Below, in pieces: positions 22,202-50,467 of a stretch of 64,000 nucleotides of DNA. Numbering within the stretch: the stretch's first letter is position 1; every line of letters begins with the position of its first letter. The notes beneath the pieces are model-generated. The model did no database searches and had not been told where the DNA came from. It saw only the letters and a list, made by a program, of their open reading frames with translations. This stretch comes from Desulfogranum japonicum DSM 18378 (lineage in GTDB: Bacteria > Desulfobacterota > Desulfobulbia > Desulfobulbales > Desulfobulbaceae), in contig NZ_AUCV01000022.1 in assembly GCF_000429945.1 (NCBI RefSeq), positions 1-64,000 of the forward strand, in the 5' to 3' direction. The translations under genes were made by a program, and so were the position numbers.

Positions 22202-22392
22202 TTCAGGTGTTCACAAGAACACAAGAGGGAACTCCGTGAAAGTCGGAGACGGGCCCGCCGCTGTAACCGGGGACGAACACTGCACCTTGTCACTGATCAG
22301 ATGATCGGGAAGACGCAGTCAGTAGAATGATCCGGAAGTCAGAAGACCTGCCTGAATCCTGAAGCATTACATGCTGCGAGGACAACAGCGCT
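22202..22392 (+). promoter_or_regulatory. Cobalamin riboswitch controlling the corrinoid uptake and remodelling operon
   Basis: The leader starts TTCAGGTG and contains AGAGGGAA, then GGGCCCGCCGCTGTAAC, and the B12-box CCGGAAGTCAGAAGACCTG, closing with CCTGAA at about 22350. The opening and closing strands pair as P1 (TTCAGG/CCTGAA). All conserved blocks of the cobalamin aptamer are in order. A terminator follows at 22424. Cobalamin should repress the downstream genes by premature termination. Confidence 0.95.
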
Positions 22393-22423
22393 TCTCCAAT
22401 ACATCTGCGGATAAAAAAGGGAC

Positions 22424-22464
22424 ATCCCGGATTGAACAGTCAGTTCAATCCGGGATTTTTTTTT
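22424..22464 (+). terminator. Intrinsic terminator forming the expression platform of the riboswitch
   Basis: ATCCCGGATTGAAC and GTTCAATCCGGGAT form a perfect 14-bp stem with loop AGTCA, followed directly by eight Ts. It is 70 bases upstream of the first gene and can only act as a regulated attenuator there. Confidence 0.92.
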
Positions 22465-22532
22465 GGGCAGAAGTAATCGCTCCCAGAGTGCCTCGCATAG
22501 GTTAACAGTTGGCAAAGCCTTGTGAGGTAGTA

Positions 22533-23318
22533 ATGGTACAGCAGTTATCGGTTCTAGGTATACTCCTTGTTTTTCTCTTCACCTCTGCGCCTGTTCATTC
22601 TGCAGAAGTTGATGATCAGGTACAAAAAACAGTGCAGTCTGCGCTCTCTACGCGCAAAAAAAACCAGCAGGAAGAAGAACAATGGCGTCAGGAGCAAGCC
22701 AGGCTCCAGGCTACTTTTGAAACTTTGGAAGCCGAAGTTCAGGAACTGCGCCTGCAACAAAACCAACTCGAGACCTCCATTCAGGATACGCAACAGCGTA
22801 TCGTCGGAAAGACTTCCCAAATTGCTGATATCGATGAGATAACAGCGCAAATCGAGCCCTTTCTGGATGAGCTTTTCATCTCACTGAAAAAAGCCATTGA
22901 TCAGGGGCTGCCATTTCTCCAGGAAGAAAGAGAGCAGCGCCTGTACAGAATAACCTCCCTGGGTTCCGATCCATCGGTGAGTATCAGCGAGCGGTATCGG
23001 AGGCTTGCGGAAGCCCTGCTTGTGGAAGCTGAATACGGCTTCACAACGGAAGTATACCAGCAGAAGATTTTACTCGAGGGAAGTGAAACCCTGGTGGATA
23101 TTTTCCGCCTTGGTCGCCTCAATCTATTCTACCTCACCCTGGATGGAACACAGTGCGGCTCCTTCAATCCTGCTGAAAAACAGTGGCATCCCCTGTCTGT
23201 CACCAATCTGCCGGCCATCCAGTCTGTCATTGCAATGGGTCGCAAACAGCATCCCATTGAGCTGGTAAACCTTCCCATCGGCCAGATACAACCGATGAAT
23301 CAGGAGGTGCAGCAATGA
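22533..23318 (+). CDS. DUF3450 periplasmic protein of a TonB2-type energy system
   Basis: A 261-residue protein with a Sec signal peptide (ending PVHSA) and a long coiled coil (about 30-105), then a globular C-terminal half. Start ATG 22533 is chosen because GTGAGG lies 5 bases upstream; a TTG at 22509 has none. The fold pattern and its place directly before a TtpC-like ExbB match the DUF3450 protein found in Vibrio-type TonB2 clusters. It probably helps couple the proton motor to TonB in the periplasm. It is the first gene after the cobalamin riboswitch and overlaps the next gene by 4 bases. Confidence 0.85.
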   Translation: MVQQLSVLGILLVFLFTSAPVHSAEVDDQVQKTVQSALSTRKKNQQEEEQWRQEQARLQATFETLEAEVQELRLQQNQLETSIQDTQQRIVGKTSQIADIDEITAQIEPFLDELFISLKKAIDQGLPFLQEEREQRLYRITSLGSDPSVSISERYRRLAEALLVEAEYGFTTEVYQQKILLEGSETLVDIFRLGRLNLFYLTLDGTQCGSFNPAEKQWHPLSVTNLPAIQSVIAMGRKQHPIELVNLPIGQIQPMNQEVQQ

Positions 23319-24760
23319 ATCACTTACGCTCATTCTGCACAGTTGCCTGGGCCCTCCTGCTATTATCTTCCCCTTGCTCTTTTGCCCAGGATATGCGTGT
23401 TATTTCCCTTGAAGCAGAACAAGCTCGCAACCTGCTCACTGAAAAAGCCACGCAGGAAAAGGCAGCGGCCGAGCAGGCGGCTGCCCAAAGCCGCAAGCAA
23501 ATTCTTGAAGACAGAGAAACCCTGCAACAGGCCATTACCAAGCTGCAACAGGAAAAACAAACCCGTACGTCCCGTGTGGAGGAACTCACAGCCCAGAGCG
23601 AACAACTTGGCAAACAGGAAGAACAGCTCACAGCAGAACTTGAACAAAAACGGGCAACCGTTGGTGAATTGATTGGCACCATCCGCATGAATGCCAAAGA
23701 TCTGGATTCACTGGCCAGCCAGGATCTAACCAACCGGGCGACCGGTGAAATGACCAGCTTCAGTAATCTGCTTGCCCAGGACGGCCAGCTTCCTTCCATG
23801 GGCCAGATTCGGACCATGATGGATGCGGTGGCCAGCCTTATTGATCATTCCCAGGGAGTGGCCCGAATTCAAGGCAACATAGTTGATCGAACCGGGCACG
23901 CCTTGAGCAGTGAGATACTGCTGATAGGACCATTTACGGCTGCCTATTCCCATCAAGGGGAAACCGGATTTCTCACATACTCTCCCGATGGAGATAACCT
24001 GTATGCCCTGTCCAGGCTGCCTTCTTCAGGAATGCAAAAACAACTCGCCCAGTATATGGAGGGCAAGCGGAGCAGCGTTCCCATTGACATTTCCAGAGGT
24101 AACGCCCTGCGACAGCTCAGTAATCAGTTACAGCTATCAGACCAGATTCAGCGGGGAGGGCCCATTGTCTGGCCCATTGTGGTAATTTTTATTCTGGGGC
24201 TCCTGATAGTACTGGAACGCAGTATACATTTAATCCGAACCAGGGCACGTACATCCAGGATCATTGACCAGATCCAGGTATACTGCAAAAATAACCAGTT
24301 CAGTGAATGCGAGGAGTGGCTCGCAAACCATGCCAGCAAACCCCTGACCAGAATTCTTCTTGCAGGGGTGCGCTCCTTTCAAAAGAGCAGGGAAGACCTG
24401 GAAAATATTCTTCAGGAAGCCATTCTTCGCGAGATCCCTCCCCTGGAACGATTTCTCTCCACCCTGGGCATGCTGGTAGCCATTGCTCCCCTTCTCGGAC
24501 TGTTGGGCACCGTCACAGGTATGATCAATGTATTTCACGTCATCACCCTCCATGGAACAGGTGATCCACGGCTGATGTCCGGTGGTATTTCCGAAGCCCT
24601 GGTAACCACCATGCTCGGCTTGGGAGTTGCCATTCCCCTGATGCTGCTACACAACGTACTCCAGCGGAGGGTTGATGAACGCATCGGCGAAATGGAAGAA
24701 AAGGCCGTTTCACTGGTGAACCTGATCCACTCCAGCAACGGTAAGAGTATGTCTTTATGA
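23315..24760 (+). CDS. TtpC-like ExbB/TolQ family proton-channel protein with periplasmic coiled coil
   Basis: A 481-residue protein. It has a signal peptide (about 1-25), a periplasmic region to about 275 with a strong coiled coil at 30-130, then three membrane helices around 280-303, 378-405 and 428-450. The MotA/TolQ/ExbB signature APLLGLLGTVTGMINVF is present. The long N-terminal extension is the hallmark of TtpC, the extra component essential for the TonB2 system of Vibrio. It starts ATGA-overlapped with the DUF3450 gene behind AGGAGGTG and overlaps exbB by four bases. Its presumed role is to form or gate the motor that energises TonB for the receptors encoded downstream. Confidence 0.88.
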   Translation: MNHLRSFCTVAWALLLLSSPCSFAQDMRVISLEAEQARNLLTEKATQEKAAAEQAAAQSRKQILEDRETLQQAITKLQQEKQTRTSRVEELTAQSEQLGKQEEQLTAELEQKRATVGELIGTIRMNAKDLDSLASQDLTNRATGEMTSFSNLLAQDGQLPSMGQIRTMMDAVASLIDHSQGVARIQGNIVDRTGHALSSEILLIGPFTAAYSHQGETGFLTYSPDGDNLYALSRLPSSGMQKQLAQYMEGKRSSVPIDISRGNALRQLSNQLQLSDQIQRGGPIVWPIVVIFILGLLIVLERSIHLIRTRARTSRIIDQIQVYCKNNQFSECEEWLANHASKPLTRILLAGVRSFQKSREDLENILQEAILREIPPLERFLSTLGMLVAIAPLLGLLGTVTGMINVFHVITLHGTGDPRLMSGGISEALVTTMLGLGVAIPLMLLHNVLQRRVDERIGEMEEKAVSLVNLIHSSNGKSMSL

Positions 24761-25392
24761 CTGGTCAATTATTTCTCCAGTATCATGACAGCCTGAATTT
24801 TTTCCGCACAGGTGGGCCAATCATGGTGCCTCTCATGCTGATCAGTCTGGCCATGTGGGCATTAATTATTGAGCGATTGTTTCATTTTCGTCGTCTTCTC
24901 CAAAATAACCAGCCCATTGATGCCCTCTGGACCGCTGTCTGCTCCAACCGGGGTCAGGCTCCTTCCTTAACAGGCCTCAATGGTCTGCTTCTGGATACCT
25001 TTCTCCGTCGCAGAAGCGGACACCTGCAGCTTGATCACTACATTGTCGACGAAATAGTTCTCTCCCTCAACCGCTCACTCAATAGTTACCTCGCCATTAT
25101 CGGTGTGCTGGCTGCCATCGCCCCGCTTCTAGGTCTGCTGGGCACAGTTACCGGCATGATGAACACCTTTAATGTCATGGCTCTTTTCGGAACCGGTAAT
25201 ATCAAGGGAATGGCCAGCGGCATTTCAGAGGCTCTGATAACTACCCAGACCGGTCTGGTTATCGCCATTCCCGGCTTATATATGAAGTCTTTTCTGGATC
25301 GTCGCGCACATAATGCCAGGCATCAGGTTGCGGCTGCCGGATATTACCTGCGCAATCACCTCAAGGAGTATAAGGAGTACGATCCATGCTGA
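24757..25392 (+). CDS. exbB: ExbB proton-channel protein
   Basis: A 211-residue MotA/TolQ/ExbB protein of normal size, with three membrane helices at about 18-38, 110-135 and 152-178. The signature stretch APLLGLLGTVTGMMNTF is followed by GISEALITTQTGLVIAIP. It is the second ExbB-like protein in the operon, as in TonB2 systems, where TtpC and ExbB are both present. With ExbD it converts proton flow into movement of TonB. It overlaps ttpC and exbD. Confidence 0.93.
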   Translation: MTGQLFLQYHDSLNFFRTGGPIMVPLMLISLAMWALIIERLFHFRRLLQNNQPIDALWTAVCSNRGQAPSLTGLNGLLLDTFLRRRSGHLQLDHYIVDEIVLSLNRSLNSYLAIIGVLAAIAPLLGLLGTVTGMMNTFNVMALFGTGNIKGMASGISEALITTQTGLVIAIPGLYMKSFLDRRAHNARHQVAAAGYYLRNHLKEYKEYDPC

Positions 25393-25805
25393 ATATCAGT
25401 GCCTCTCGCAGATCTAATCGGCAGAAACCGGGGCTGGATATAGCTCCACTCATAGATATGGTCTTTATTCTCCTGATCTTTTTTCTGGTGAACACCAGCT
25501 ATGTCAAAGAAACCGGCATTGAAGTTATTCGTCCGACAGCGGCAACGGCCACTGCTGCAAAAAATACCACCATTCTCCTTGCCATTGACAAACAGAACAA
25601 AGTGTTCATGCAACGCAGGGAAATTGATATTCGTGCTGTTCGAGCCAATGTTGAGCGGGCACTTGCAGAAAACCCTGAAAGCAGCGTGGTTGTGGTAGCG
25701 GATAAAGCCAGTGCCACCGGAACAGCCATCCAGGTCATGGACGGTTGCCGCATGGCTGGCGCGACCAGTGTTTCCCTGGCAGCAAGTCTGAATCAGGACA
25801 AATAA
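25386..25805 (+). CDS. exbD: ExbD biopolymer transport protein
   Basis: A 139-residue ExbD/TolR protein with one membrane helix (about 20-40) and a periplasmic domain. The helix carries the essential aspartate, Asp24, in LDIAPLIDMVFILLIFFLV. The C-terminal half has the VVVVADKAS segment typical of ExbD. It partners the ExbB proteins in the stator. It overlaps exbB by seven bases, and tonB follows after four bases, so the genes are translationally linked. Confidence 0.93.
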   Translation: MLNISASRRSNRQKPGLDIAPLIDMVFILLIFFLVNTSYVKETGIEVIRPTAATATAAKNTTILLAIDKQNKVFMQRREIDIRAVRANVERALAENPESSVVVVADKASATGTAIQVMDGCRMAGATSVSLAASLNQDK

Positions 25806-25809
25806 AACA

Positions 25810-26463
25810 ATGCATTTTCCGCACACACAACTCAACTGGCCACTGGCACTGGCTGGTACTCTCTGCTGCAATATGTTCATCTTCCTGCTATTGCCCCTGC
25901 TCATCAGCAAGAAGCCGCCTGAACTCATTGCCACAGACATGATTGAGCAGGTGCAACTGATTCGCCTGCAAAAGGAAACACCTCCCAAACCTCCTGAAGA
26001 ACACAAACAACCAAAACCCTTAGAAAAAGAGAAGCCAAAACCCAGCCAGCAGAAAATATTCAAGGAAAAATTGCAGCTGGCTCTTGATCTCAACCCGCGA
26101 CTTCCCAAAGGCCCAACCACCCTGGAATTGCCTCCCCCTGACCTGAACCTGCAGGGCGTTAGCGGTGATGCCATATTTGAGGTGGGTGATCTGGATGCAC
26201 CTTTGACAACAGTTGCCAGAATACCTCCCCTCTACCCGCTGAAGGCCCGGCGGCGAGGTATTGAAGGCTGGGTCAAGGTGCGTCTGCTGGTAAATGAACA
26301 GGGCGATGTAAGCGGCGTGACCATTCTCGAAGCCCAACCAGACGGTATTTTTGAAAAAAGTGTCCGCAACTGTGTCGTCAGCTGGCGCTTTCAGCCCGGT
26401 ACTGTTGATGGTGTACCTGTCAAAGCACAGGTGGAAACCGTTATTCATTTCACATTGGAGTAA
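25810..26463 (+). CDS. tonB: TonB energy transducer
   Basis: A 217-residue TonB with an N-terminal membrane anchor (about 10-32), a Pro/Lys/Glu-rich periplasm-spanning linker (about 50-100) and a C-terminal TonB domain (about 130-217). The domain has PPLYPLKARRRGIEGWVKV, then NCVVSWRFQPGTVDG and the end VETVIHFTLE. Its length and short linker match TonB2-type proteins rather than E. coli TonB. It should touch the TonB boxes of the two receptors in this operon and drive corrinoid import. Confidence 0.93.
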   Translation: MHFPHTQLNWPLALAGTLCCNMFIFLLLPLLISKKPPELIATDMIEQVQLIRLQKETPPKPPEEHKQPKPLEKEKPKPSQQKIFKEKLQLALDLNPRLPKGPTTLELPPPDLNLQGVSGDAIFEVGDLDAPLTTVARIPPLYPLKARRRGIEGWVKVRLLVNEQGDVSGVTILEAQPDGIFEKSVRNCVVSWRFQPGTVDGVPVKAQVETVIHFTLE

Positions 26464-26467
26464 GGCT

Positions 26468-27790
26468 ATGCTGTCTACAATGAGAAACATCTGCTCTACT
26501 CTTCTCCTGGTTCTGCTGGTAACAACCTTTGCCAATGCCGCCTCGGGGAAGCAACAATCCCTTCCTCCCAGGGCGCAGATCCTGCTCAGCAAAATATCTC
26601 CCCTGCTGCAGAAACAGCAATACGCCCGGGCTGCTGCACTCATTGTTGAGCGGCAAAGTTCCTGTCCTCTTGCCCAGGCAACCCGGGGAAAGGGATATCA
26701 CCATGCAGAAGTCTACTTTGCCCTGGGAAATTGTTATTTGTTGAATACGCAATATCAGCTTGCAGAAAGAGCCTACAGAGAGGCTGTCACAACAGATCCT
26801 GAGCATACCCATGCCTGGCTTAACCTGGCAAAAACCTATTATGAGCTTGAGCAATACCTGGCTGCAGCAGACTGTTTCAGTCACGGTTATGCAAGTGAGG
26901 AAAGCAAGAATCCCGAGGTGTTATATTATGCGGCCGCATCACTGCTCATGGCTGAAAAACCTGGCAAAGCAGTGCAAGTATTTGAAAAATTGTTTGCCAC
27001 CCATGCTGATGCCATCCGTGATCCCTGGCGAGAAAATTACGTGCATGCGTTGCTGGCTATCAATAAAAATAGAAAAGCCCTTCCCCAGATTCGCCTGCTC
27101 ACCGAACATTACACAGGTGAAAAACAGATAAAATGGCAGGAAATCCTGCTCCATCAGTACCTGCAACTGGAGATGATCAAAGAGGCACACTCCTATGCCC
27201 ATTTTCTCACCGAGTCTGCCCCACAGGTTGAAAAATGGTGGAAAACCCTGGCCCACATTCAACTCAACATGGACCGGGGCATGAACGCTTTGGCCTCACT
27301 GGTTATTTACAGCTACCTGACAGAACCCGATTATAAGGAATCCAAGCTTATAGCAGACCTCTGCATGCAGGAGGGCATCCCGATCAAGGCAGAACCGCTG
27401 TACCGCCGGTGGCTGGAACAGAAAAACGACGCCAAATTACTGCACAGGCTGGTCATGGCTCAATACCAGCTGGGTAAAATCGAAGAGGCTCTCAAAACCC
27501 TGGGCAGTTACCAGAGCCTGGTAACCACGGAAGGCCTCCTTATGCTTAAAGGAGAACTCCATTACAGACTCGACCAGTTCCACGAGGCTGAAACAGCCTT
27601 CAAACAGGCGGCACTTACCCATGAATCCAGGGAAGGACAGGCTTGGCTCATGGCCGGATACGCTGCCATGCAAAAAAGGCAGTTGAGCGACAGTAGAAAT
27701 GCCTTTACCAAAGCTGCCACCTTTCCTTCACAAAAAAAGGCAGCTCTGGTTGCCCTCAATCATCTTAATAACAACCAGGTACCAAACTGA
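26468..27790 (+). CDS. Periplasmic TPR protein of the TonB2-type system
   Basis: A 440-residue protein started at ATG 26468, just after the tonB stop and a TAAGG site. The signal peptide is about 1-26 (LLVLLVTTFANA). The rest is a chain of TPR units (QYQLAERAYREAVTTDPEHTHA and FHEAETAFKQAALTHESREG are clear ones). Vibrio TonB2 clusters end with a TPR protein in the same position, so this completes a six-gene module. It is presumably a periplasmic scaffold for the motor or receptor. Its stop shares a base with the start of the next gene. Confidence 0.85.
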   Translation: MLSTMRNICSTLLLVLLVTTFANAASGKQQSLPPRAQILLSKISPLLQKQQYARAAALIVERQSSCPLAQATRGKGYHHAEVYFALGNCYLLNTQYQLAERAYREAVTTDPEHTHAWLNLAKTYYELEQYLAAADCFSHGYASEESKNPEVLYYAAASLLMAEKPGKAVQVFEKLFATHADAIRDPWRENYVHALLAINKNRKALPQIRLLTEHYTGEKQIKWQEILLHQYLQLEMIKEAHSYAHFLTESAPQVEKWWKTLAHIQLNMDRGMNALASLVIYSYLTEPDYKESKLIADLCMQEGIPIKAEPLYRRWLEQKNDAKLLHRLVMAQYQLGKIEEALKTLGSYQSLVTTEGLLMLKGELHYRLDQFHEAETAFKQAALTHESREGQAWLMAGYAAMQKRQLSDSRNAFTKAATFPSQKKAALVALNHLNNNQVPN

Positions 27791-28551
27791 TGTCTGCCCA
27801 TTTCAGCCTGCAATGCATCACCATGCTCTATTTTCTCGGTTTCTGCGTGTCCTTTGTGACAAAAAGAAAACCTCTCCTGTTCTGGTTTGTGGTGCCGGCC
27901 CTGCTTGTTCATGTATATCTGATATATCTGCGCTACCTTGCTGCATGGCCTTTACTCCCCATGTACATGAGCAGTCTTGCTGTGCCCATGGTTTTAGGCA
28001 TATTCTGGATGTTTCCGCAAACGTCCAGCGTTCCTTTTAAGCAGCAGATTCTTTTTCAGCGACTGCTGCTGCTGTTCTGCCTGCTCTGGTCAGGCCTGAG
28101 CCTCTGTTTTCCCAAGGATTTTTACCTGCCCTTTCTTCAGTCAAACACCTGGCTTGCCCATATTTTCCTGCTCACCGGTATCATTGGCAAAGCATGCCTG
28201 CTCTGCTGTGCAGCCTGGGGCATCATCAGCCTTACATGCAACACCCAGGATGAAAAACGAATCTGTATGACCCAATCCTTTAACTGGTCAATCTGGGGAT
28301 TTGTCTTTTGGACCCTCTCCATGTTCAGCGGTGAGGTCTGGTCGTACCTTGGCTGGGGAACTCCAGTGGTCTGGGAGGATGCAGTACTCACAACTACCAT
28401 GGCGGCATGGTTTTATTACGGCTGCTATCTTCACCTTCACCTGACCCGTTCATGGAAAATCGGATACCGTGCCTGTTTTGCTTCTTTTGGCCTGGTCATT
28501 CTTCTCTTTGCGACCCTGCCTGATCTGGGGCCTCTCCGTTCACCTTTCTGA
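27790..28551 (+). CDS. CcsA/CcmC-like membrane protein (divergent haem-handling family)
   Basis: A 253-residue protein of about eight membrane helices. The segment SYLGWGTPVVWEDAVLTTTM followed by AWFYYGCYLHLHL resembles the tryptophan-rich WWD-type segment and helix of CcsA/ResC/CcmC proteins, which move haem for cytochrome c assembly. The motif is altered (WGTPVVWED). Candidate axial histidines lie in LVHVYLIY, TWLAHIFLL and CYLHLHL. It is followed by a ResB-like gene, reproducing the usual ResB-ResC partnership. No cytochrome c gene is near; all neighbours concern TonB and corrinoids. It may handle haem or another tetrapyrrole. The exact role is unknown. Confidence 0.68.
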   Translation: MSAHFSLQCITMLYFLGFCVSFVTKRKPLLFWFVVPALLVHVYLIYLRYLAAWPLLPMYMSSLAVPMVLGIFWMFPQTSSVPFKQQILFQRLLLLFCLLWSGLSLCFPKDFYLPFLQSNTWLAHIFLLTGIIGKACLLCCAAWGIISLTCNTQDEKRICMTQSFNWSIWGFVFWTLSMFSGEVWSYLGWGTPVVWEDAVLTTTMAAWFYYGCYLHLHLTRSWKIGYRACFASFGLVILLFATLPDLGPLRSPF

Positions 28552-28563
28552 CCCGGATTTTCC

Positions 28564-29424
28564 ATGACTACAGCAACCAACACAACCACACTTGAAAACG
28601 CAGTGAAAAGTTCCCCTTCAACACTGTCAACGCTCTGGAAAATGGCAGGATCCATCAACCTGTCCATCATCCTTCTTCTGTTGCTCACCCTGGATTCCCT
28701 GGTCGGCTATTTCTGCCTGGATCGTAACCCGTCCCTGTTCAGGCCCATGGGTGACATGGGCCTGATGACCTGGATCGACACCTATGGCCGTCACAATCTC
28801 GCGGTTACCGGTTGGTTTTTTGTCCTGCTGGCTCTCCTTTTTGTCCTCTGCTGCAACACCTTTGTCTGCACCACTGACCGGACTCTGCGAATTCTCCGCA
28901 ACCGTAAACAACATAGTACTGCCAGACTCCTTTTCCGCCTGGCGCCACATTGCATGCACTATGCTCTGCTGTTGATCCTCACAGGTTATCTGTGCAGCTA
29001 TCTGTTCAGCATCGTCATCCCCACCCAGACTCTTGTGATCGGCTCTGAATATATACTTCCCAACCAGGCAGGAACCATACGGTTCATCTCCTTTGACCCG
29101 GTAACGTATAACGGCGAACGGCTCTACTGGCTTGATGGCAACGTGTTGTCCCCCAAAGCCACACTGCGGCTCTCCACTCCCCATACAGAGCAGGAAGCTG
29201 TCATTGGTTTCAATCGTCCCGCCCGTTTTAATGGGTACAGTCTGCACCTGAAAAATTTCGAACCCAAAACCCAGGGCAAAATGCATCGTAAAACCAGAAT
29301 TGATCTCCATGTGCGCAAAGATCCCGGGGTCATGCTCTATCTTGCAGGTCTCATTCTGTTTTCCTTTGGCATGGTCCTTTATGGATGTGAATGGATTTTC
29401 TTTAGAGAGGTTAGCAAAAAATGA
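28564..29424 (+). CDS. ResB-like membrane protein
   Basis: A 286-residue protein with four membrane helices (about 31-50, 80-101, 127-148 and 255-277) and a periplasmic domain between helices 3 and 4. The order, the motif NLSIILLLLLTLDSLVGYF at helix 1 and the final RKDPGVMLYLAGLILFSFG match the ResB/Ccs1 family that partners CcsA in system II cytochrome c maturation. It is shorter than typical ResB (over 400 residues) and lies next to the CcsA-like gene. Its place in a B12-regulated operon is unusual; delivery or reduction of a tetrapyrrole is conceivable. Its stop overlaps the lipoprotein start. Confidence 0.68.
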   Translation: MTTATNTTTLENAVKSSPSTLSTLWKMAGSINLSIILLLLLTLDSLVGYFCLDRNPSLFRPMGDMGLMTWIDTYGRHNLAVTGWFFVLLALLFVLCCNTFVCTTDRTLRILRNRKQHSTARLLFRLAPHCMHYALLLILTGYLCSYLFSIVIPTQTLVIGSEYILPNQAGTIRFISFDPVTYNGERLYWLDGNVLSPKATLRLSTPHTEQEAVIGFNRPARFNGYSLHLKNFEPKTQGKMHRKTRIDLHVRKDPGVMLYLAGLILFSFGMVLYGCEWIFFREVSKK

Positions 29425-36661: not shown

Positions 36662-36744
36662 CCTCAACTTTCCACGATTTTTTGAAAAGTGTTGTCTGCC
36701 CTGATTATTCAGCGAAAGCTCCAGAGAGCAAATAGGCTGGCCGC

Positions 36745-38496: not shown

Positions 38497-38551
38497 AAAC
38501 TCGTGAACATTCAACACTCTATTCATATGATGGAATTTTGAGGCACAACTG

Positions 38552-41604: not shown

Positions 41605-41623
41605 TCTTCACCCGGAGAAGGCC

Positions 41624-41883
41624 ATGAAGAAAGATGCTCAGGAACAATACTGGTTCCCCGCCAAACGGTATGGATGGGGGGGGGATTGCCAAATACCTGG
41701 CAGGGCTGGCTGGTATTTCTCGGCTACCTGGCTGCCGTGCTGGTCAGTTGTCTGTACCTGGAACAGGCAAAAATGCCTTCCTGGTTCATTCCGTTACACA
41801 TCTTCCTCCTTGCGCTTTTTATTTTCACTGTCTGGAAAAAAGGTGAACCACCGAAGTGGCGCTGGGGCAAGGAACAACCATGA
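41624..41883 (+). pseudogene. Small two-TM membrane protein with a one-base frameshift in a G run
   Basis: ATG 41624, behind GGAGAAGG, reads MKKDAQEQYWFPAKRYGWGG and then leaves frame at a run of nine Gs (41676-41684). From there the other frame continues as GLPNTWQGWLVFLGYLAAVL and a second hydrophobic segment, ending GEPPKWRWGKEQP at 41883. A lost T between five and four Gs would restore a GWGWGLP motif. The joined product would be about 86 residues with two membrane helices. It may be a true lesion, phase variation or a sequencing error. The function is unknown. Confidence 0.65.
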
Positions 41884-41968
41884 CGTAACCGGCTACAAAT
41901 ACGCGAGACTTTTAAACTTATAGGCCTCCTCTGTGAGGGAGTATACCATAACACAAATACAAACAATC

Positions 41969-42805: not shown

Positions 42806-43539
42806 TGCATGGTTTTATAGCTGTTTATCTTCGCGAACTCCTTATTCTCAAATATCGTCTCAAACGCCAGCTGGCGGGAATGGCGGTCTCACCGCTTTTG
42901 TATCTGGTAACCTTTGGCTATGCCATGGGAGATGTCATCCAGATTGGGGAGCAGAGTTACCTCCACTTCCTGATCCCCGGTCTGGTTGCCATGAGCAGCA
43001 TGACCCAGGCGTTTTCCATTGCAACGGACATTAATGTTGCCAGGTTTTACTGGAATATTTTTGAGGAATTTCAGGCAGCACCCATCACCAACCTGTCCTA
43101 TGTAGCTGGCGAAGTGCTGGCAGGCATGACCAGGGCACTGATGGCCATCGTGGTTATACTCCTGCTCAGCCTTCCCTTTGGGGTGGTGCTGCACTACGGT
43201 CCCTGGTTCTGGCTGGGTATTGTCTGCAACAGTTTTGTTTTCTCCTCTCTGGCTGTTGCCCTTGCCATGCTGGTCAAATCCCATGCAGACCAGAGTCTGT
43301 TAACCAACTTTATCATCACCCCCATGGCCTTTCTCGGCGGTACCTTTTTCCCAGTGGAAAAATTACCTGTCTGGGCGCAGATGCTCCTCTCTCTCCTTCC
43401 CCTGACACATGCCTCCAGGGCCATACGGGCAAGTGCCCTGGGAGAGTCTGTTTTGTGGTGGGATTATGTACTGCTTTTGAGCATTGGAGCCCTGTGTTTC
43501 TGGTTTGCCCTGAGCTCAGTTAACAAGGCAAGAGATTAG
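42805..43539 (+). CDS. ABC-2 type transporter permease
   Basis: A 244-residue permease with six membrane helices of the ABC-2/DrrB/NodJ type. Marks include YLHFLIPGLVAMSSMTQAF and the typical helix 5-6 region FLGGTFFPVEKLPVWAQ followed by LPLTHASRAIRA. Together with the ATPase it forms a two-gene exporter. Such pairs export lipids, polysaccharides or drugs, and why one should be B12-regulated is not known. A small frameshifted membrane protein lies just upstream. Confidence 0.88.
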   Translation: MHGFIAVYLRELLILKYRLKRQLAGMAVSPLLYLVTFGYAMGDVIQIGEQSYLHFLIPGLVAMSSMTQAFSIATDINVARFYWNIFEEFQAAPITNLSYVAGEVLAGMTRALMAIVVILLLSLPFGVVLHYGPWFWLGIVCNSFVFSSLAVALAMLVKSHADQSLLTNFIITPMAFLGGTFFPVEKLPVWAQMLLSLLPLTHASRAIRASALGESVLWWDYVLLLSIGALCFWFALSSVNKARD

Positions 43540-43576
43540 GAATAGAAAACAACAGCACCTGTTTAAGGAGGAAACT

Positions 43577-44791
43577 ATGCTGCTACAGACCCTATACGAC
43601 AAGGTGGAAATTCACCGTCAGAAAAAGATCATTTATGCAAAATTTCTCCAGCCTCACACAGTGCTCTCCACCTGCCGTGCAGCAGGAGGATTCCGCTCAG
43701 ACCTCGATTACATCTACAACCATCAAAGCTGTGAGCCCTGCGCCCACAGCCAGCGCATGTCACCGGCAGCGTATCGTAATCCGCAGACGTATCGCAAAAA
43801 CATTTGTCAGGAGTATGAATTGCCGGACCAACGCTGCGCTACCCTTGGCACTGCAGCCAATATGAACAATGCCTGCATAGCTTCCCGTACCTTTAGAGAC
43901 CTTACCGTATCAGCTGTGTGTACCGGTGGAGTGGAGGGTAATGCCGGGCGTGCAGGAGATCCTGCCTCTGTGGTTGAAGTGGAAGACGGCTTTGAACGGC
44001 TGGATCCGGCTAATGCCATGCCCGGGCCAGGTACCATCAATACCATGCTCTTTATTTCAACACCTTTAACCGAAGGAGCCATGGTACGCACCATTATGAC
44101 CGCCACGGAAGCCAAGACAGCGGCTCTACAGGAATTAGCCGTCAATTCGCGCTATTCCGACAGCCTGGCAACCGGGACAGGGACAGACCAGATCGCAGTG
44201 GCAGCCTGCTCCGGTTCAGGTGCCAGATTGACCAGCGCAGGCAAGCATAGCAAGTTGGGGGAACTCATTGGCCAAGTGGTTTCCGAAGCCATCAAGCAGA
44301 CACTGGCCAGACAGAACAACATGACTCCGTCGGGACAGTGTTCTGCAAAAATTCATCTGGAGCGCTTTGGCATAAATCGAAAATCCATGCAGGAAACCAT
44401 CTGCTGGTATCTGGAAACCGATCAGGCTGAACTTCTCTGCAATAATTTTCCAGCCATTGAAAGGGACCCTGTCACCGTGGCAGCTGTGGCAGCCATGGTG
44501 CATCTGAAAGATAAGATTACCTGGGGTATTCTGCCTGCCACCTGCTGGACCGAGGTGATGGGCTCATTTGCTGCCCAGGTCGCCTGTGCAGTCAGCGGTT
44601 CCTACGAAAAGCTGGGGGAATATCGGAATTTCCTTGCCCCCCCGAGCTCAAACACAGGCAACAGGGATTTCCTGGAATTGGTCTGTAAAGCCATTGCCAT
44701 AGGATTTGAAGATAAATGGAGAAATCTGGATGCGCTACAGGAAGAGACGTGCGCAGACAGTAAAGAGCATATGGCGGTTGCTCAGGATTAA
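43577..44791 (+). CDS. cbiZ: Adenosylcobinamide amidohydrolase (CbiZ family)
   Basis: A 404-residue protein. Its central and C-terminal part belongs to the CbiZ family: INTMLFISTPLTEGAMVRTI followed by MTATEAKTAALQEL and GTGTDQIAVAACSGS. CbiZ hydrolyses the amide that carries the aminopropanol arm of cobinamide or pseudocobalamin, giving adenosylcobyric acid so that the nucleotide loop can be rebuilt. It starts behind AAGGAGG. CbiZ in an uptake operon is the signature of corrinoid remodelling and identifies the transported substrate. The N-terminal 60 residues are extra and cysteine-rich (CEPCAHS), of unknown role. Confidence 0.88.
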   Translation: MLLQTLYDKVEIHRQKKIIYAKFLQPHTVLSTCRAAGGFRSDLDYIYNHQSCEPCAHSQRMSPAAYRNPQTYRKNICQEYELPDQRCATLGTAANMNNACIASRTFRDLTVSAVCTGGVEGNAGRAGDPASVVEVEDGFERLDPANAMPGPGTINTMLFISTPLTEGAMVRTIMTATEAKTAALQELAVNSRYSDSLATGTGTDQIAVAACSGSGARLTSAGKHSKLGELIGQVVSEAIKQTLARQNNMTPSGQCSAKIHLERFGINRKSMQETICWYLETDQAELLCNNFPAIERDPVTVAAVAAMVHLKDKITWGILPATCWTEVMGSFAAQVACAVSGSYEKLGEYRNFLAPPSSNTGNRDFLELVCKAIAIGFEDKWRNLDALQEETCADSKEHMAVAQD

Positions 44792-44879
44792 CAGGCTGCC
44801 CCTGCCAGTAATGTACAACGGTGAGTGGAGATGTACTCCCTGGGCCGTATGTTTAAAAAAAAAGAAGTGGAGGACAAAG

Positions 44880-46919
44880 ATGAAGAATAAAAGGCGAATG
44901 CGTTGTGAGCATTTTCTGTTCGCCCTGACCCTGTTGCCCCTGACTCAGGTGCCAGCCCTGGCTCAGGATCAGGCAGACACCGAAGCCGTTGAAGACATGG
45001 TGGTTACAGCCAGCCGGACCGAAGAACGCGCCATAGATGTACCAATCACCACTGAAGTCATCACCCGTGACCAGATCGAGATGTCCGGGGTCAATGATAT
45101 TGGCGACCTGATCGGCAAATATGTAACCGGTCATTATCACAAATATAGTGGTATCCTCAGCCCGGTAGGGCTGCGTGGTTTTAAAACAGATTCCCATGGG
45201 TCAGACCTGAACGGTTACGTGCTGCTGCTCATTGACGGACACAGAGTCGGTACCGGAAATGCAGCTAAGCTGAACCTGGATCGCATTGAAAAAGTTGAGG
45301 TTATTAAAGGCCCCTCTTCTGCGCTCTATGGTTCCGCAGCCATGGGCGGTGTTATCAACCTGATCACCAAGAAGGGAGATGGTGAATTGGGAGGCTCCAT
45401 TGGTGGCGAGATCGGTAGCTTTGATTATTATCGCGGTCAGGCATCCATGGGTGGGGAAGTTAATGACAAGATCCGCTTTTTTGCTAGCGTAAGCGGAGAG
45501 ACCATGGATGACTATGACACCGTGGATTATGGTACAGCCTACAATACAGGTGTGGATAAAATCAATGTTGGCGGTAATGTTGTCTATACCTTAAACGATG
45601 CACATGCATTTCGCCTGGGTGGTAACTATTCGGATCTGACCTCTGAGTCACCTGACTGGGCAGGAGATACCTATTCCTACTACGACTCCACCACAGAACA
45701 GGACAACGATAAAAGTACCGGCTATACAGACCTGGAATACAACGGCGATTATCTGAATGGAGTCTTACACTGGAAAGCGGTCTTCTATTACCTGTGGGAT
45801 AAAAACCAGTGGAATACCGGTACAATTGATCCTGAATCCAACCAGACCAAATACATTGACCAGACCCTTGGTACGGATCACCAATTCACATGGAAAATAA
45901 ACGACTGGAACACCCTGCTTGCCGGCTTTACCTTGGACAGCCTGGAAAAAGAATCCTCTTCTGTTGTGAATTATCAGCCTTCCATGCCCTACACCCCAGG
46001 ATTGGATTACGATAACCAGGCGGTTTTTCTCCAGGATTCCCTGGATCTGCTGGACAACCGTCTCAACATCCTGGCTGCTGTCCGCTACGACCGTTTTGAC
46101 GTAACTACCAAGGAAGCTGAAACCGGCACCTATGAAAACTTCAATGAGAGAAGCGAAGACTATTCCCATGTTTCCCCAAAAATAGGGGTCGGCATGAAAT
46201 TTCTGGATGAAATGCTTCGCGTACGAGCCAACATGGGTGAAGGCTTCAAATCTCCCACAGCCTCGCAGCTTTCCGCAGATTATTATCATAGCTCCACAGG
46301 AATGCATTACCTGGGTAACCCTGACCTGGATCCGGAAACATCCATGACCTATGATGTGGGCTTTGATGTCTACCTGGAGGGCCTGACCTTCAAGGCAGAT
46401 TACTTTACCACTGATTATGAGGATAAAATCGTTGATGAAACCTATGATGATAATGGGGTTTCCACAACCACCTATGTCAATCACGGTGATGCCACCATTT
46501 CAGGATTTGAATTTTCCCTGGAATGGGCGTTCAGTGAAACCTTTAACCTCCCCTTTGCAGGTTCTTTCTGGTCCAATATGAGTTTTAATACGGAAAAAGA
46601 AGACGAACTCACAGGCGAAGATATACTGAACGTCTCCGATTATGAGATCAAATCCGGGCTCACCATGGGCTATGCCGGTTTCCAGGGGCAATTGAGTCAT
46701 TCCCTGGTTGGGCCTCAAATGATTAAAAACTGGGACACTTATCTGACAGAAGAAAAGGACAGCTTTGACTACTGGGATCTGACCCTGCGCTACCGGTTTA
46801 TGGAAGTCTGGGAGGTGAAAGCCAGCATATTGAACATTTTTGATCAGGATTACGAATGGGTCATGGGCTATCCCATGGCTGAACGGAATTATCGTATTGG
46901 TTTGACCTACAACTTTTAA
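44880..46919 (+). CDS. TonB-dependent outer-membrane receptor (BtuB/CirA-like)
   Basis: A 679-residue receptor started at ATG 44880 behind GGAGG. It has a signal peptide ending PALAQ, then EAVEDMVVTASRTEERA with a TonB box. The plug domain follows, including LLIDGHRVGTGNAAKLNLD and EVIKGPSSALYGSAAMGGVINLITKKG. The barrel ends YRIGLTYNF. A start at 44706 would overlap cbiZ and lacks a signal sequence. It is a second, distinct receptor in the operon, larger than the one at 36745 (583 residues). Different receptors may capture different corrinoids. Confidence 0.9.
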   Translation: MKNKRRMRCEHFLFALTLLPLTQVPALAQDQADTEAVEDMVVTASRTEERAIDVPITTEVITRDQIEMSGVNDIGDLIGKYVTGHYHKYSGILSPVGLRGFKTDSHGSDLNGYVLLLIDGHRVGTGNAAKLNLDRIEKVEVIKGPSSALYGSAAMGGVINLITKKGDGELGGSIGGEIGSFDYYRGQASMGGEVNDKIRFFASVSGETMDDYDTVDYGTAYNTGVDKINVGGNVVYTLNDAHAFRLGGNYSDLTSESPDWAGDTYSYYDSTTEQDNDKSTGYTDLEYNGDYLNGVLHWKAVFYYLWDKNQWNTGTIDPESNQTKYIDQTLGTDHQFTWKINDWNTLLAGFTLDSLEKESSSVVNYQPSMPYTPGLDYDNQAVFLQDSLDLLDNRLNILAAVRYDRFDVTTKEAETGTYENFNERSEDYSHVSPKIGVGMKFLDEMLRVRANMGEGFKSPTASQLSADYYHSSTGMHYLGNPDLDPETSMTYDVGFDVYLEGLTFKADYFTTDYEDKIVDETYDDNGVSTTTYVNHGDATISGFEFSLEWAFSETFNLPFAGSFWSNMSFNTEKEDELTGEDILNVSDYEIKSGLTMGYAGFQGQLSHSLVGPQMIKNWDTYLTEEKDSFDYWDLTLRYRFMEVWEVKASILNIFDQDYEWVMGYPMAERNYRIGLTYNF

Positions 46920-46928
46920 CCCGCAGTT

Positions 46929-46962
46929 GTTGAGCAATATGCGCATCTTCATATTGCTCAAC
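46929..46962 (+). terminator. Hairpin between the receptor and adenosyltransferase genes
   Basis: GTTGAGCAATATG (46929-46941) and CATATTGCTCAAC (46950-46962) form a perfect 13-bp stem with an 8-base loop. The downstream sequence has few consecutive Ts, so it may attenuate transcription or stabilise the 3' end rather than end transcription fully. Confidence 0.6.
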
Positions 46963-47109
46963 AGTATTGTATTCCCTTGTAAAAATTCGTATAACTCGGT
47001 TTGCTCATATATAGATCAGACTCATCGCGGAAAGATCTATTGCACGGTGAGTAGTTAGAAAAGGAACATAATACAAAAAAATTACTACCAGATGTCAGGG
47101 GAAATACCA

Positions 47110-47631
47110 ATGCGCAAAGGCTTACTCATGGTTTTTACCGGCAACGGGAAGGGCAAAACAACCGCTGCTCTGGGAATGGCCATACGTGCTGCCGGACATG
47201 GCCTCAAAGTGTGCTTTATTCAATTTATTAAAGGCAGTTGGCACTACGGTGAACTGGATGCCAAGGAACGATTCAGCGACCTGATAGAATGGCATGTGAT
47301 GGGAAAAGGATTCACCTGGAAATCTGAAAACCTGGAAGATGACGCCAAGCTGGCAAGGGATGCCTGGAAAATGGCATGTGAGGCCATGAATTCAGGAAAA
47401 TATCATACGGTCGTACTGGATGAATTCACCTATCTGCTGCATTATAATATGCTGGAACTGGAACCTTGCCTTGAGATCCTGCAGAAACGCGATCCCAATC
47501 AGCATGTGGTGATAACAGGTCGCTACGCACCAAAAGAGCTGATCGAAGCAGCAGACCTGGTGACAGAAATGCAGCCAATAAAACACCCGCTCAAAAAAGG
47601 GGTGAAGGCGCAGAAGGGAATTGAATTCTAA
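47110..47631 (+). CDS. cobO: Cob(I)alamin adenosyltransferase, CobO/BtuR type
   Basis: A 173-residue enzyme that transfers adenosyl from ATP to reduced cobalt of corrinoids. The P-loop is FTGNGKGKTTAALGMAIRA, near residues 9-27, and the family segment VLDEFTYLLHYNML is present. ATG 47110 is chosen because AGGGGAA lies about seven bases upstream. It follows the second receptor across the 46929 hairpin. In this operon it would adenosylate imported or cobinamide-level corrinoids, required before CbiZ acts. Confidence 0.93.
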   Translation: MRKGLLMVFTGNGKGKTTAALGMAIRAAGHGLKVCFIQFIKGSWHYGELDAKERFSDLIEWHVMGKGFTWKSENLEDDAKLARDAWKMACEAMNSGKYHTVVLDEFTYLLHYNMLELEPCLEILQKRDPNQHVVITGRYAPKELIEAADLVTEMQPIKHPLKKGVKAQKGIEF

Positions 47632-47680
47632 GCCTGACTACTCATCACTTGCACAAAAAACATGACGCATCCACACGGCC

Positions 47681-48721
47681 ATGCCACCTCTTCGCTCTCT
47701 GACCCTGATGCTCACCAACCGCTGCAACCTGTCCTGCGCCTATTGCTACCATGGCGAACAGGACACGCCAACGGACATGTCTCTGGACACACTTGACAAA
47801 GCACTTGATTTGGCAACAAAATCAGGCAATAAAGGGTTTCACGTGCAACTCACCGGTGGTGAAGCTACCCTTGTTCCTCATCTCATTGCCCAGGCGTCAG
47901 AAAAAGTTCGCGGTCTGGACCATAGCTGTACCATCTCTCTGCAGACTAACGCCACCCGACTCAACCCTGAACTGGTCGAGCTGATAAAAAAGTACTCCAT
48001 TGATATCGGTGTCAGCCTAGACGGCCCCCCACAGATTCAAGAACAACTCCGCGGTAAGGCTGGAGCATTGCTTCAGGGGCTGAACATACTGGAAGCTGCC
48101 TGCATTCCGTTCCGGGTGACCACCGTGGTCAGCCAGGCCAATGTGCAATTCCTCCCGCAGGTCGCAATCCTGCTCAGCAGATACCAACAGGCCCAGGGAA
48201 TGGGTCTGGACCTGCTGGTCCGAAAAGGCCGGGCCGTTGACCGACAACGTTTACCGGCAGATCCGAGGAGTTTGCGGCAGAATATAAACGAACTGATCCA
48301 GACCCTTGTACGGGTAAACAAAAAACGGTCAACACCCCTGCATCTACGGGAACAGGATCTGGTGTATCACCGAATGACCGCCGCAGACCAGACTCCCCTG
48401 CGGGCCTTTTGTCACGCACAACAGGGCACGTCTCTGGCAGTAAGCGTTGCTGGGGCTCTTTATCCATGCAGTCAGACCTTTGGTGACCCGAATTTCACTG
48501 CCGGCACAGTGGATGATCCTCTTCCAGTACCAGGCTTTCCAGCCACTGCCCTCTCAACGGATAACCCACTCTGCGGTACCTGTCCTTTAGAGCAATGCTG
48601 CCCCGGAGACTGTCCCAGCAGAATATGGTATAACAGACAAGACAGGGACAGACTGTCCTGTCATGTCTACCAAGCCATCGCCAGCACCTTTCCCTATTCC
48701 CAACCTCTTAACAACCAATGA
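47681..48721 (+). CDS. Radical SAM protein with C-terminal SPASM-like cysteine region
   Basis: A 346-residue radical SAM enzyme. The cluster motif is TNRCNLSCAYCYHG (Cys15, Cys19, Cys22). The barrel follows with HVQLTGGEATLVP and SLDGPPQIQEQLRG. The C-terminal region from about 245 has extra cysteines, ending LCGTCPLEQCCPGDCPSR and LSCHVYQ, a SPASM/Twitch-like auxiliary cluster domain. Such proteins modify peptides or proteins (for example anaerobic sulfatase maturation), but the substrate here is unknown. It overlaps the nitrilase gene by four bases. No precursor peptide gene is seen. Confidence 0.8.
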   Translation: MPPLRSLTLMLTNRCNLSCAYCYHGEQDTPTDMSLDTLDKALDLATKSGNKGFHVQLTGGEATLVPHLIAQASEKVRGLDHSCTISLQTNATRLNPELVELIKKYSIDIGVSLDGPPQIQEQLRGKAGALLQGLNILEAACIPFRVTTVVSQANVQFLPQVAILLSRYQQAQGMGLDLLVRKGRAVDRQRLPADPRSLRQNINELIQTLVRVNKKRSTPLHLREQDLVYHRMTAADQTPLRAFCHAQQGTSLAVSVAGALYPCSQTFGDPNFTAGTVDDPLPVPGFPATALSTDNPLCGTCPLEQCCPGDCPSRIWYNRQDRDRLSCHVYQAIASTFPYSQPLNNQ

Positions 48722-50253
48722 AAACACTAGCCATTGCCCTACTCCATTGTGCACCACAGCATAAACAACACGCACATAACCTTGAAATGGTTATGGACCT
48801 CTGCAATCAGGCTGGTAAGGAGGGTGCACAACTGGTTATTGCTCCTGAGCTTTGTCTCTCCGGATATTCGTTTAACAACCGAGAAGACATCCGTCCATAC
48901 ACAGATACCATTGACGGGGAAACGGTACAGACGCTCAGCAAACTGGCTGTCCGTCATGGATTCTATCTCTGTACAGGCATTGCAGAACGGGAACAAGAGA
49001 CCGATCTCTTCTACAATACGGCCCTGACCATTAATCCTCAGGGCAATCTCGTTGGCCGCTACCGTAAGATCAATGCGGAAATGCGGTGGGCGTGCCCGGG
49101 TAATCCTTACGAAGACAATACCTTTGCCACACCATGGGGACGATTTGGTGTGCTCATTTGTTCGGATTCCTATCACAGCCTCATGCCCCGTATCACAGCC
49201 CTTCGTGGTGCAGACCTTCTCATCATCCCGGCAAACTGGCCACCCATGGGGCTGCAGCCAGAGGAAATATGGAGTGCACGGGCCAGAGAAAATGGCATCC
49301 ATGTGGCAGCCTGCAATCGGACAGGTCAGGACCTGACCATGGACTGTTCCCAATCTTCGTCTGCCTTATTTCACCCGGATGGCAGTCCTCTGCTTTGTTG
49401 CACCAGTCAGGAATCAGAAATATTTCTACTGGATATTCCACTGAATGCCGATGACCTGCTGGAAAACGATCACCGGCAAGCCATGGAGAAACACCGCAGA
49501 CAGCTGGCAGGTATCCATGACTGCAGCCTTAACCTTTCGGCCATCCAGGATCTGACCTCTTTCCTTGGATTACCCGCCTCTGGTAACATCACGATAACAC
49601 TTCATGTTCCTGCAAACAACCTTCCTTCAGGTCAATGGACACAGCATTTTTTATCTGAGCCCTGGAACACAAACGGGTTACATGTCCTTCCTTGCTCGTC
49701 TTACTCATCTGCAGACATTGAGCAGTTTGCGCGACATGCTGCTTCCCAGCAAGTTCATATTGTGCTCCGCAGCACTGAACCAGAGGATACATATTTCCTC
49801 ATTCAGCCCAGTGAAACAACTCCGGTTATGCGTTTTCAAATGGAAACGGGAAAGAGCAAGATGTGGTTTCACGACCTGAACCAGGCACGGATAGCCATCG
49901 CTGCTCCCGATATCCTGCAACATCCGGAACCAGTCCTGGCTACGGCAAAAAATGGTTGTGACCTTATCATCTGCTGTGAAGGTAATATCAGTGAAGCCCA
50001 TATACGAACTGGGGGTGTGCGCACCATAGAGCAGACGGCTATCGCGGTCTGCTCTCAAAACCTGGCCGGTTTCTGGATGCCACCCCAGGGTCATGCCCGC
50101 TGGCAGGAAACCATCTGCCCCTCCGGTTCCTCAACCACGGTGGCCTTTGATACAAAGCTGACCCGCTGCAAACGATTCCAGGACAGGGTTGATTTCCCCA
50201 CCTTGCTCCGAGGGATACCCACTTTGTGCCAGACGCGTCAGGATTTGCTATAA
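48718..50253 (+). CDS. Two-domain carbon-nitrogen hydrolase (nitrilase superfamily)
   Basis: A 511-residue protein. The first domain (about 1-265) is a complete nitrilase-type hydrolase with the triad Glu44 (IAPELCLSGY), Lys117 (YRKINAE) and Cys148 (VLICSDSYH). The second (about 275-511) repeats the fold in degraded form: NGCDLIICCEGNISEAHIRT has the right context, but no matching triad. It is the last gene of the B12-controlled run and overlaps the radical SAM gene. It may hydrolyse an amide of the corrinoid or of its lower arm. The substrate is not known. Confidence 0.82.
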   Translation: MKTLAIALLHCAPQHKQHAHNLEMVMDLCNQAGKEGAQLVIAPELCLSGYSFNNREDIRPYTDTIDGETVQTLSKLAVRHGFYLCTGIAEREQETDLFYNTALTINPQGNLVGRYRKINAEMRWACPGNPYEDNTFATPWGRFGVLICSDSYHSLMPRITALRGADLLIIPANWPPMGLQPEEIWSARARENGIHVAACNRTGQDLTMDCSQSSSALFHPDGSPLLCCTSQESEIFLLDIPLNADDLLENDHRQAMEKHRRQLAGIHDCSLNLSAIQDLTSFLGLPASGNITITLHVPANNLPSGQWTQHFLSEPWNTNGLHVLPCSSYSSADIEQFARHAASQQVHIVLRSTEPEDTYFLIQPSETTPVMRFQMETGKSKMWFHDLNQARIAIAAPDILQHPEPVLATAKNGCDLIICCEGNISEAHIRTGGVRTIEQTAIAVCSQNLAGFWMPPQGHARWQETICPSGSSTTVAFDTKLTRCKRFQDRVDFPTLLRGIPTLCQTRQDLL

Positions 50254-50467
50254 AGAATCCGATTACTATCGGCTTTGCTTGCGAACACTCGAGTAGACCG
50301 GCTTCTCTCACTCATAAAAAACGATGAATGCTCAAGCATATTACTGCTAGCCCCAATCTGTTCTCGTGTCTTTCGGGATTTGCTTAAAAGTCGATCTGAT
50401 TTCTCTTCCGACTGATTACTGTAAAGCAGTGTCGTTATATGTATCTTCTCAGCATTCTTTCATCATC

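Follow-up and report, generated by a model that had tools for sequence, protein, structure and literature searches.

A predicted riboswitch-controlled corrinoid uptake operon with a CcsA/ResB-like membrane pair in Desulfogranum japonicum

Comparison with described systems

BtuF and BtuCD alone are usually credited with carrying vitamin B12 (cobalamin) across the inner membrane. We analysed a stretch of 64,000 nucleotides from Desulfogranum japonicum DSM 18378 (contig NZ_AUCV01000022.1, positions 1 to 64,000; hereafter the window), in which a cobalamin riboswitch precedes a run of genes for corrinoid capture, import and remodelling that includes a CcsA-like and a ResB-like membrane protein next to BtuF. 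The run is best read as a riboswitch-controlled operon in which the CcsA/ResB pair would assist the importer as a membrane partner carrying b-heme (probability about 0.6). This reading rests directly on gene content, the riboswitch, conserved gene order, linkage of the pair to BtuF, fold and residue pattern; co-transcription, heme binding, the direction of the chelatase and a redox role are the steps that we infer.

Of the known systems, CcsBA (System II; Helicobacter hepaticus structure 7s9y) resembles the pair in having both halves, the fold and the transmembrane histidine pair. Cytochrome c maturation by CcsBA depends on the WWD motif and on all four histidines, and the CcsBA heme has a potential of -115 mV (PMC6299221). 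Unlike CcsBA, the window pair has a ResB-like half of only 286 amino acids, has lost the middle tryptophan of the WWD motif and the histidine P-His2, and is linked, through gene order and the riboswitch, to a corrinoid importer. BtuFCD importers with CbiZ salvage share domain families and the riboswitch with the window; they differ in that the window BtuC and BtuD fall below curated equivalog cut-offs and have the CcsA/ResB pair as an additional partner. The Vibrio TonB2 system likewise has six gene types, with a DUF3450 protein (TtpB2) encoded first and a TPR protein last, but its operon carries a predicted Fur site where the window set has a cobalamin riboswitch (PMC6957404, from which the first, second and last positions of the gene order are taken).

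Clusters of cobN-bchI-bchD beside B12 transport genes are described in the green sulfur bacteria Chlorobium and Chlorobaculum, which share with the window a class I chelatase together with B12 uptake genes, and cobalamin riboswitches on btu genes; cobalt insertion into acquired cobalamin is a reported speculation for Chlorobaculum tepidum (PMC8620254). The available part of that paper mentions no CcsA/ResB, and the window adds a TonB2 motor, an ABC-2 exporter, a SPASM protein and a nitrilase, all in one order. The chelatase genes that the first-pass annotation, made from the sequence alone, had placed within the uptake operon are present there. Since CobN-type chelatases encoded next to B12 uptake functions have been published before, this part of the locus is a variant of a known arrangement. 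The HmuYRSTUV system also combines a CobN homologue, a TonB receptor and an ExbB-type protein in one uptake operon (PMC12583661, PMC10434189). The hmu operon is induced by iron limitation, whereas in the window a B12 riboswitch precedes a CobN that is devoid of export signals and accompanied by AAA+ partners; another locus of the same genome, L043, is closer to Hmu than the window operon is. The new element of the operon, and its least expected part, is the CcsA/ResB pair, and no report joining CcsA/ResB with B12 uptake was found in the literature searched, which covered few subscription journals.

Riboswitch, gene order and continuity of the run

The riboswitch (RF00174, 22188-22369, + strand) was detected by cmscan with 118.8 bits (E 3.4e-29; gathering threshold 31.5), and the match spans model positions 1-189, i.e. 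a complete aptamer. It is followed by a 14-pair hairpin with a T run at 22424-22456 (-24.2 kcal/mol, z -5.75), an intrinsic terminator that likely serves as the expression platform of a transcriptional OFF switch. After the terminator, 22 protein genes reaching to 50253 lie on the + strand, and with starts corrected 19 of the 21 junctions overlap by 1-14 bases or are less than 90 bases wide. Riboswitch with terminator, about 22 tightly packed genes on one strand, and the identities of most of these genes had all been proposed in the first-pass annotation, and the profile scans with Pfam and NCBIfam on which our gene names are based agree with its TonB2 parts, two receptors, BtuFCD-like importer, CobN, two ATPases, CbiZ and CobO. 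It had not listed the CcsA-like and ResB-like proteins, the ABC-2 exporter (41969-43539), the SPASM radical SAM protein or the nitrilase.

The TonB2 (TtpC-type) gene set is complete in one run (22509-27790). It consists of the TtpB2-type DUF3450 protein (22509-23318; PF11932, 231 bits), a TtpC-type ExbB fusion (23315-24760; PF01618, 116.6 bits, with a weak DUF3450 match in the N part), ExbB (24757-25392; PF01618, 87 bits), ExbD (25386-25805; PF02472, 93.8 bits), TonB (25810-26463; PF03544, 66.2 bits) and a TtpD2-type TPR protein (26468-27790; TPR families; ATG start, with the frame open from TTG at 26351). The order of the middle genes is also that of the Vibrio TonB2 system. The CcsA-like protein (27790-28551; PF01578, 57.9 bits) and the short ResB(CcsB)-like protein (28564-29424; PF05140, 40.6 bits) come next, followed by the importer: a BtuF-like binding lipoprotein (29421-30590; PF01497, 60.9 bits; lipobox-like IAGC), a BtuC-like permease (30577-31629; PF01032, 274.7 bits) and a BtuD-like ATPase with a C-terminal extension (31626-32894; PF00005). 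The importer proteins match their Pfam domains; in the curated models the permease scored best with BtuC (209.6 bits, cut-off 334), and the ATPase reached 233.4 bits with the corrinoid ATPase model PRK09536 (cut-off 537) and 111.9 bits with the BtuD model PRK03695 (cut-off 281).

The chelatase genes encode CobN (32891-36661; PF02514, 1325 bits; TIGR02257, 964.2 bits, over its cut-off of 822.05), a ChlID-type AAA+/VWA subunit (38552-40573; TIGR02442, 817 bits, over the cut-off of 779) and a ChlI-type AAA+ subunit (40570-41604; TIGR02442 477 bits and TIGR02030 430 bits, both below cut-off), with TonB-dependent receptor 1 (TBDR1, 36745-38496; PF00593, PF07715) in between. Downstream lie a DrrA-type ABC ATPase (41969-42805; TIGR01188, 274.5 bits, below cut-off; frame open from GTG at 41933) with its ABC-2 type permease (42805-43539; PF01061, 93.4 bits), the amidohydrolase CbiZ with a C-terminal extension (43577-44791; PF01955, 214.7 bits), TonB-dependent receptor 2 (TBDR2, 44880-46919; PF00593, 161.4 bits; ATG start, frame open from TTG at 44706), the CobO/BtuR corrinoid adenosyltransferase (47092-47631; PF02572, 235.5 bits; TIGR00708 over cut-off), a radical SAM protein with SPASM-family matches (47681-48721; PF04055; PapB-type model 119 bits, below cut-off) and a nitrilase-family amidase (48718-50253; PF00795, 132.8 bits).

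This order, whose presence in relatives had been set as a test, is kept in other genomes. On contig JAHDSC010000085.1 the riboswitch is followed by 19 genes arranged as in the window, DUF3450 being the first and TBDR2 the last, and a contig taken as NZ_JHZB01000007.1 of Desulfobulbus elongatus has CcsA-ResB-BtuFCD-CobN-TBDR1-ChlID-ChlI-ABC-ABC2-CbiZ-TBDR2-CobO-SPASM-nitrilase in the order of the window, with one additional receptor-like match between ChlI and ABC. Locus L141 extends from TBDR1 through nitrilase, with a second receptor match ahead of CobO, and in L034+L035 and L037+L038 a receptor is followed by SPASM and nitrilase matches without a CobO match. CbiZ was found in 8/8 and nitrilase in 6/8 of the genomes behind nine named loci (L057 left out). 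The SPASM protein and the nitrilase recur with CbiZ/CobN sets (window 47681-50253, L033, L035, L038, L141; nitrilase alone in L043); as a guess, the two may act on corrinoid side chains.

Two junctions of the run are wide, 364 bases (41605-41968) and 172 bases (46920-47091). In the former lies a small hydrophobic open reading frame, apparently frameshifted at a run of nine Gs; of 12 loci searched, one (L141) has a weak match to it at the corresponding place between ChlI and ABC (E 2.9e-5). The overlapping frame 41561-41923 was rejected as a gene; the other frame there gives the small hydrophobic peptide that is broken at the G run. In the latter, a 16-pair hairpin at 46926-46965, a possible attenuator before CobO, is stable (-21.9 kcal/mol, z -5.79), yet its T-tract is poor.

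These junctions bear on the strongest competing reading, in which the 28 kb would comprise several transcription units, with the riboswitch ruling the first part and CobO, SPASM protein and nitrilase transcribed from their own promoter after the 46926 hairpin. The 172-base gap with its stable hairpin and the 364-base gap fit such a division and may split the run, and terminator-like sites in 41000-51500 (both strands) numbered 21 against 10.4 in shuffles. Moreover, the 6 kb that remain after TBDR2 on JAHDSC010000085.1 contain none of CobO, SPASM and nitrilase, and the best nitrilase match of that genome lies on another contig; the absence of these three genes from their expected place has raised the odds of several units. 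All this weighs against a single unit. Conversely, on the contig taken as D. elongatus only about 66 bases separate the end of the TBDR2 match from the start of the CobO match. Promoter-like sites did not exceed chance in two scans limited to sigma-70 types (16 vs 15.8 and 4 vs 11.4), none of those listed lay in the 172-base gap, and the T-tract of the hairpin is poor. A split into several units is thus a serious contender that we nevertheless lean against, and we continue to read the 22 genes as one presumably co-transcribed operon.

The CcsA/ResB pair and its linkage to BtuF

Scanning with an alignment of the CcsA-like protein gave 22 named loci, including those of Desulfobulbus elongatus, D. 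alkaliphilus, D. rhabdoformis, Desulforhopalus vacuolatus and Desulfatibacillum alkenivorans; linkage was counted in these only, as further loci overlap them. After the CcsA-like gene, a ResB-like gene and BtuF follow in 22/22 loci and BtuC with BtuD in 21/22, the exception (L064) being a locus where the contig ends. Twenty of the 22 loci have an upstream cobalamin riboswitch on the strand of the genes, and the contigs of the other two (L053, L062) start just upstream. Between riboswitch and CcsA-like gene, 12 of these 20 loci have no match to a window protein, two have a TonB-receptor match and six have TonB-module matches. ResB-like protein and BtuF share a single open frame of 675 codons in L068 and of 667 codons in L073, joined by a hydrophobic linker, although both are metagenome assemblies in which such a frame could be an assembly error.

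A scan of 395 genomes of the phylum gave matches to the CcsA-like alignment in 49 at E 1e-15, ordinary CcsA included. At E 2.4e-50 or better there were 14 (own genome included), and BtuF adjoins in 13 of them. L111 (genome G278), which has a CcsA-like match and no BtuF match nearby, was counted as a miss. Of nine weaker loci (L115-L123), several of them near contig ends, BtuF was present in L118 only. As a control, 29 CcsA-type loci with flanks of about 1.5 kb (L019-L031, L090-L103, L136, L137) were inspected, and BtuF was found in one, L090, which is the same G270 locus as L118; this set is mixed, since L019 and L091-L095 also have a ResB-like match and not all are ordinary CcsA.

When solved structures were searched by sequence with the CcsA-like and ResB-like profiles, no match was obtained at E 1. 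AlphaFold2 models, with mean predicted local distance difference test scores of 90.1 (CcsA-like) and 90.7 (ResB-like), were more informative. The CcsA-like model aligned with residues 626-903 of CcsBA 7s9y at Z 19.2 and 3.4 Å over 239 positions (VIA-align); CcmF 6zmq ties with it (Z 19.1) and was the sole Foldseek match under 0.001. The ResB-like model aligned with residues 1-340 of CcsBA at Z 12.3 and 3.5 Å over 219 positions (Foldseek E 2.2e-6). As both halves match CcsBA, the window pair together rebuilds the System II heme exporter/synthetase.

Residue names (TM-His, P-His, WWD) follow PMC6299221 and were mapped onto the window pair by alignment; the ordinary rows compared were L020-L030, with L031, L136 and L137 left out. 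Both transmembrane histidines are invariant, TM-His2 (H215) in 23/23 uptake-type and 11/11 ordinary rows and TM-His1 (ResB H132) in 23/23 and 5/5. The middle tryptophan of the WWD motif is replaced by V or I in all 23 uptake-type rows and P-His2 is absent from 21/23, while ordinary CcsA rows keep the middle tryptophan, P-His1 and P-His2 in 11/11 each. In the tree, ordinary CcsA and the uptake types separate at 100/100; S_L123, which had been drawn as a sister row, falls with ordinary CcsA, and S_L118 has a very long branch.

Several observations weigh against the proposed reading of the operon and its pair. P-His1 is lost in 6 and kept in 17 of the 23 uptake-type rows. The BtuF-linked rows do not form one clade, with L072, L073 and L107 grouping with uptake types that lack BtuF (89/64). 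The pair is patchy, the CcsA-like query reaching at least 60 bits in 7 of 95 relatives and the protein being found in 0/6 same-genus genomes (68-100% complete). For seven BtuF-linked loci (L104, L106, L107, L108, L109, L112, L118) no upstream same-strand riboswitch was found in the stretch taken, some of these stretches ending near or inside the operon. The CobN-ChlID-ChlI-ABC block recurs with other importers in the absence of the CcsA/ResB pair (L129, L130). Finally, ResB in its usual topology has its C-terminus inside the cell, so that with this topology a BtuF fusion would require an extra membrane segment; the hydrophobic linker is present at this place.

CcsA/ResB pairs are also found away from BtuF. 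Among the weaker loci, L115, L117, L120 and L121 have TonB-receptor matches nearby, and L117, L119, L120 and L121 have proteins with an Oxidored_molyb domain, which in L117 and L120 is fused to a tetrapyrrole-methylase domain; the N-termini of these proteins look signal-peptide-like by eye. No cobalamin riboswitch was found in the stretches taken from the weaker loci examined. These neighbourhoods suggest a wider group of CcsA/ResB pairs for the uptake of tetrapyrroles or metallophores.

They also lend something to the idea that the pair is a tetrapyrrole translocator and not a reductase, moving heme, porphyrin or corrin across the inner membrane. As CcsBA moves heme outwards, the pair might load a periplasmic partner or rid the cell of an unwanted ring; the ABC-2 exporter, which belongs to the conserved block, may take part in this. 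A kept transmembrane heme site next to an altered outer ligation site would suit this role, as would the TonB receptors and tetrapyrrole-methylase-domain proteins beside other pairs. The transmembrane histidines, however, also fit a fixed heme, and movement of a ring is only conjectured. We consider translocation unlikely, if by no means far-fetched, and favour the b-heme partner of BtuF.

Chelatase, proposed pathway and implications

Against solved structures, the window CobN scored 801 bits with CobN, 476 with ChlH and 349 with HmuS. Hydropathy revealed no hydrophobic segment, so the protein is probably cytoplasmic, and its two AAA+ partner genes (38552, 40570) are encoded alongside. The genome has three CobN proteins, and two CbiK-family proteins in the stretches tested. 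One CobN belongs to L043 (4356-15635, contig C50), where a B12 riboswitch is accompanied by a BtuF-CbiZ fusion, CobN, DUF2162, an ExbB-like protein, a nitrilase with a signal-like N-terminus and a TonB-receptor plug protein; this CobN (1295 amino acids) has hydrophobic segments at 3-21 and 1270-1288, and by sequence the set is one of export-type parts in a Hmu-like layout. The third CobN (1292 amino acids) has a cobalamin riboswitch of its own in front of it and is followed by a CbiK-family protein (L045, 1060-6164, contig C14). In relatives, further CobN paralogues, about 30-52% identical to the window CobN, occur near the corrinoid operon (L032+L033, L037+L038, L131, L141).

A chelatase running backwards, which would remove cobalt from imported corrinoids in the way that HmuS removes iron from heme, has been considered and ranked lower. 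HmuS is a heme-de-chelating CobN homologue (PMC12583661), a CobN-like family named 'BtuS', put forward in 2003, is predicted to be exported and membrane-anchored (via PMC6460266), and the genome's own Hmu-like set lies behind a B12 riboswitch. The window CobN, on the other hand, is neither exported nor membrane-anchored by its sequence, stands nearer to biosynthetic CobN than to HmuS, and has two AAA+ partners, which are absent from the hmu operon composition in the available text and from the L043 proteins tested. De-chelation by the window CobN therefore seems distinctly unlikely, cobalt insertion being the better fit. Cytochrome c synthesis for a dedicated c-type cytochrome, which membership in PF01578 and PF05140 and the CcsBA fold might suggest, was rejected as very improbable, given the loss of WWD and P-His2 residues that CcsBA requires (PMC6299221), the lack of any CXXCH motif in the 27 window proteins scanned, and two ordinary Cytochrom_C_asm paralogues elsewhere in the genome (176 and 158 bits vs 60 for the window protein).

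The genome carries 13 cobalamin riboswitches over cut-off and one below in 5.8 Mb. In L047 (3374-14294, contig C56) a riboswitch is followed in one run by a FecCD/ABC/binding-protein importer and cbi de novo genes, the cluster encoding CbiC, CbiD, CbiG, a CobB/CbiA-type protein and four tetrapyrrole methylases, which we take to be marks of the anaerobic pathway. If cobalt enters early when the cell makes corrin, CobN acting late would suit the salvage of metal-free or wrongly metallated rings. On the - strand of the window (14244-17134), a second cobalamin riboswitch (73.7 bits) lies ahead of CobT and a ThiC-family protein, which scored 559.9 bits with the ThiC model (over cut-off) and 492 with the BzaB model (below cut-off); next to the uptake operon, these genes may serve to make and activate a lower ligand. 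The proposal that one regulator controls the whole path from capture to reworking stands insofar as one riboswitch precedes a tight, conserved run; 'whole path' was too much, because the genome has 13 riboswitches, with separate ones before the cbi cluster, the exported-CobN set and the third CobN.

In the pathway that we favour, low cobalamin would let the riboswitch allow transcription beyond the 22424 terminator, and the TonB2-type motor would energise the two outer-membrane receptors. BtuF would hand the corrinoid to BtuCD, CbiZ would remove the lower-ligand loop in the cytoplasm, CobN-ChlID-ChlI would adjust the metal, most likely by supplying cobalt to rings that have no metal or the wrong one, and CobO would adenosylate the product. 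CcsA/ResB would form a CcsBA-type complex with the transmembrane bis-histidine heme site kept and the cytochrome c ligation site lost, which would bind one b-type heme in the membrane and serve BtuF, most likely as a redox or hand-over partner at the outer face of the inner membrane; Co(III) corrinoid might, for example, be reduced there before import. Aquo-Co(III) corrinoid has a potential of about +200 mV, and the -115 mV of the CcsBA heme would accordingly be low enough for its reduction. The redox step taken alone is a tentative suggestion from sequence, somewhat short of even odds. Slightly more doubtful is the broader idea that a branch of CcsBA has become a heme-based membrane machine for tetrapyrrole uptake, which takes BtuF-bound corrinoid, reduces it or passes it on and is switched by the riboswitch, with related pairs doing likewise for other tetrapyrroles.

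The conserved, riboswitch-linked CcsA/ResB pair beside BtuF suggests a missing redox or hand-over step at the membrane and a second use of the CcsBA scaffold, beyond cytochrome c. Such CcsA/ResB genes are probably mislabelled where they are annotated as 'cytochrome c biogenesis'. Should the pair prove to bind heme and reduce corrinoid, the inner-membrane handling of Co(III) corrinoids and other tetrapyrroles by anaerobes would become testable.

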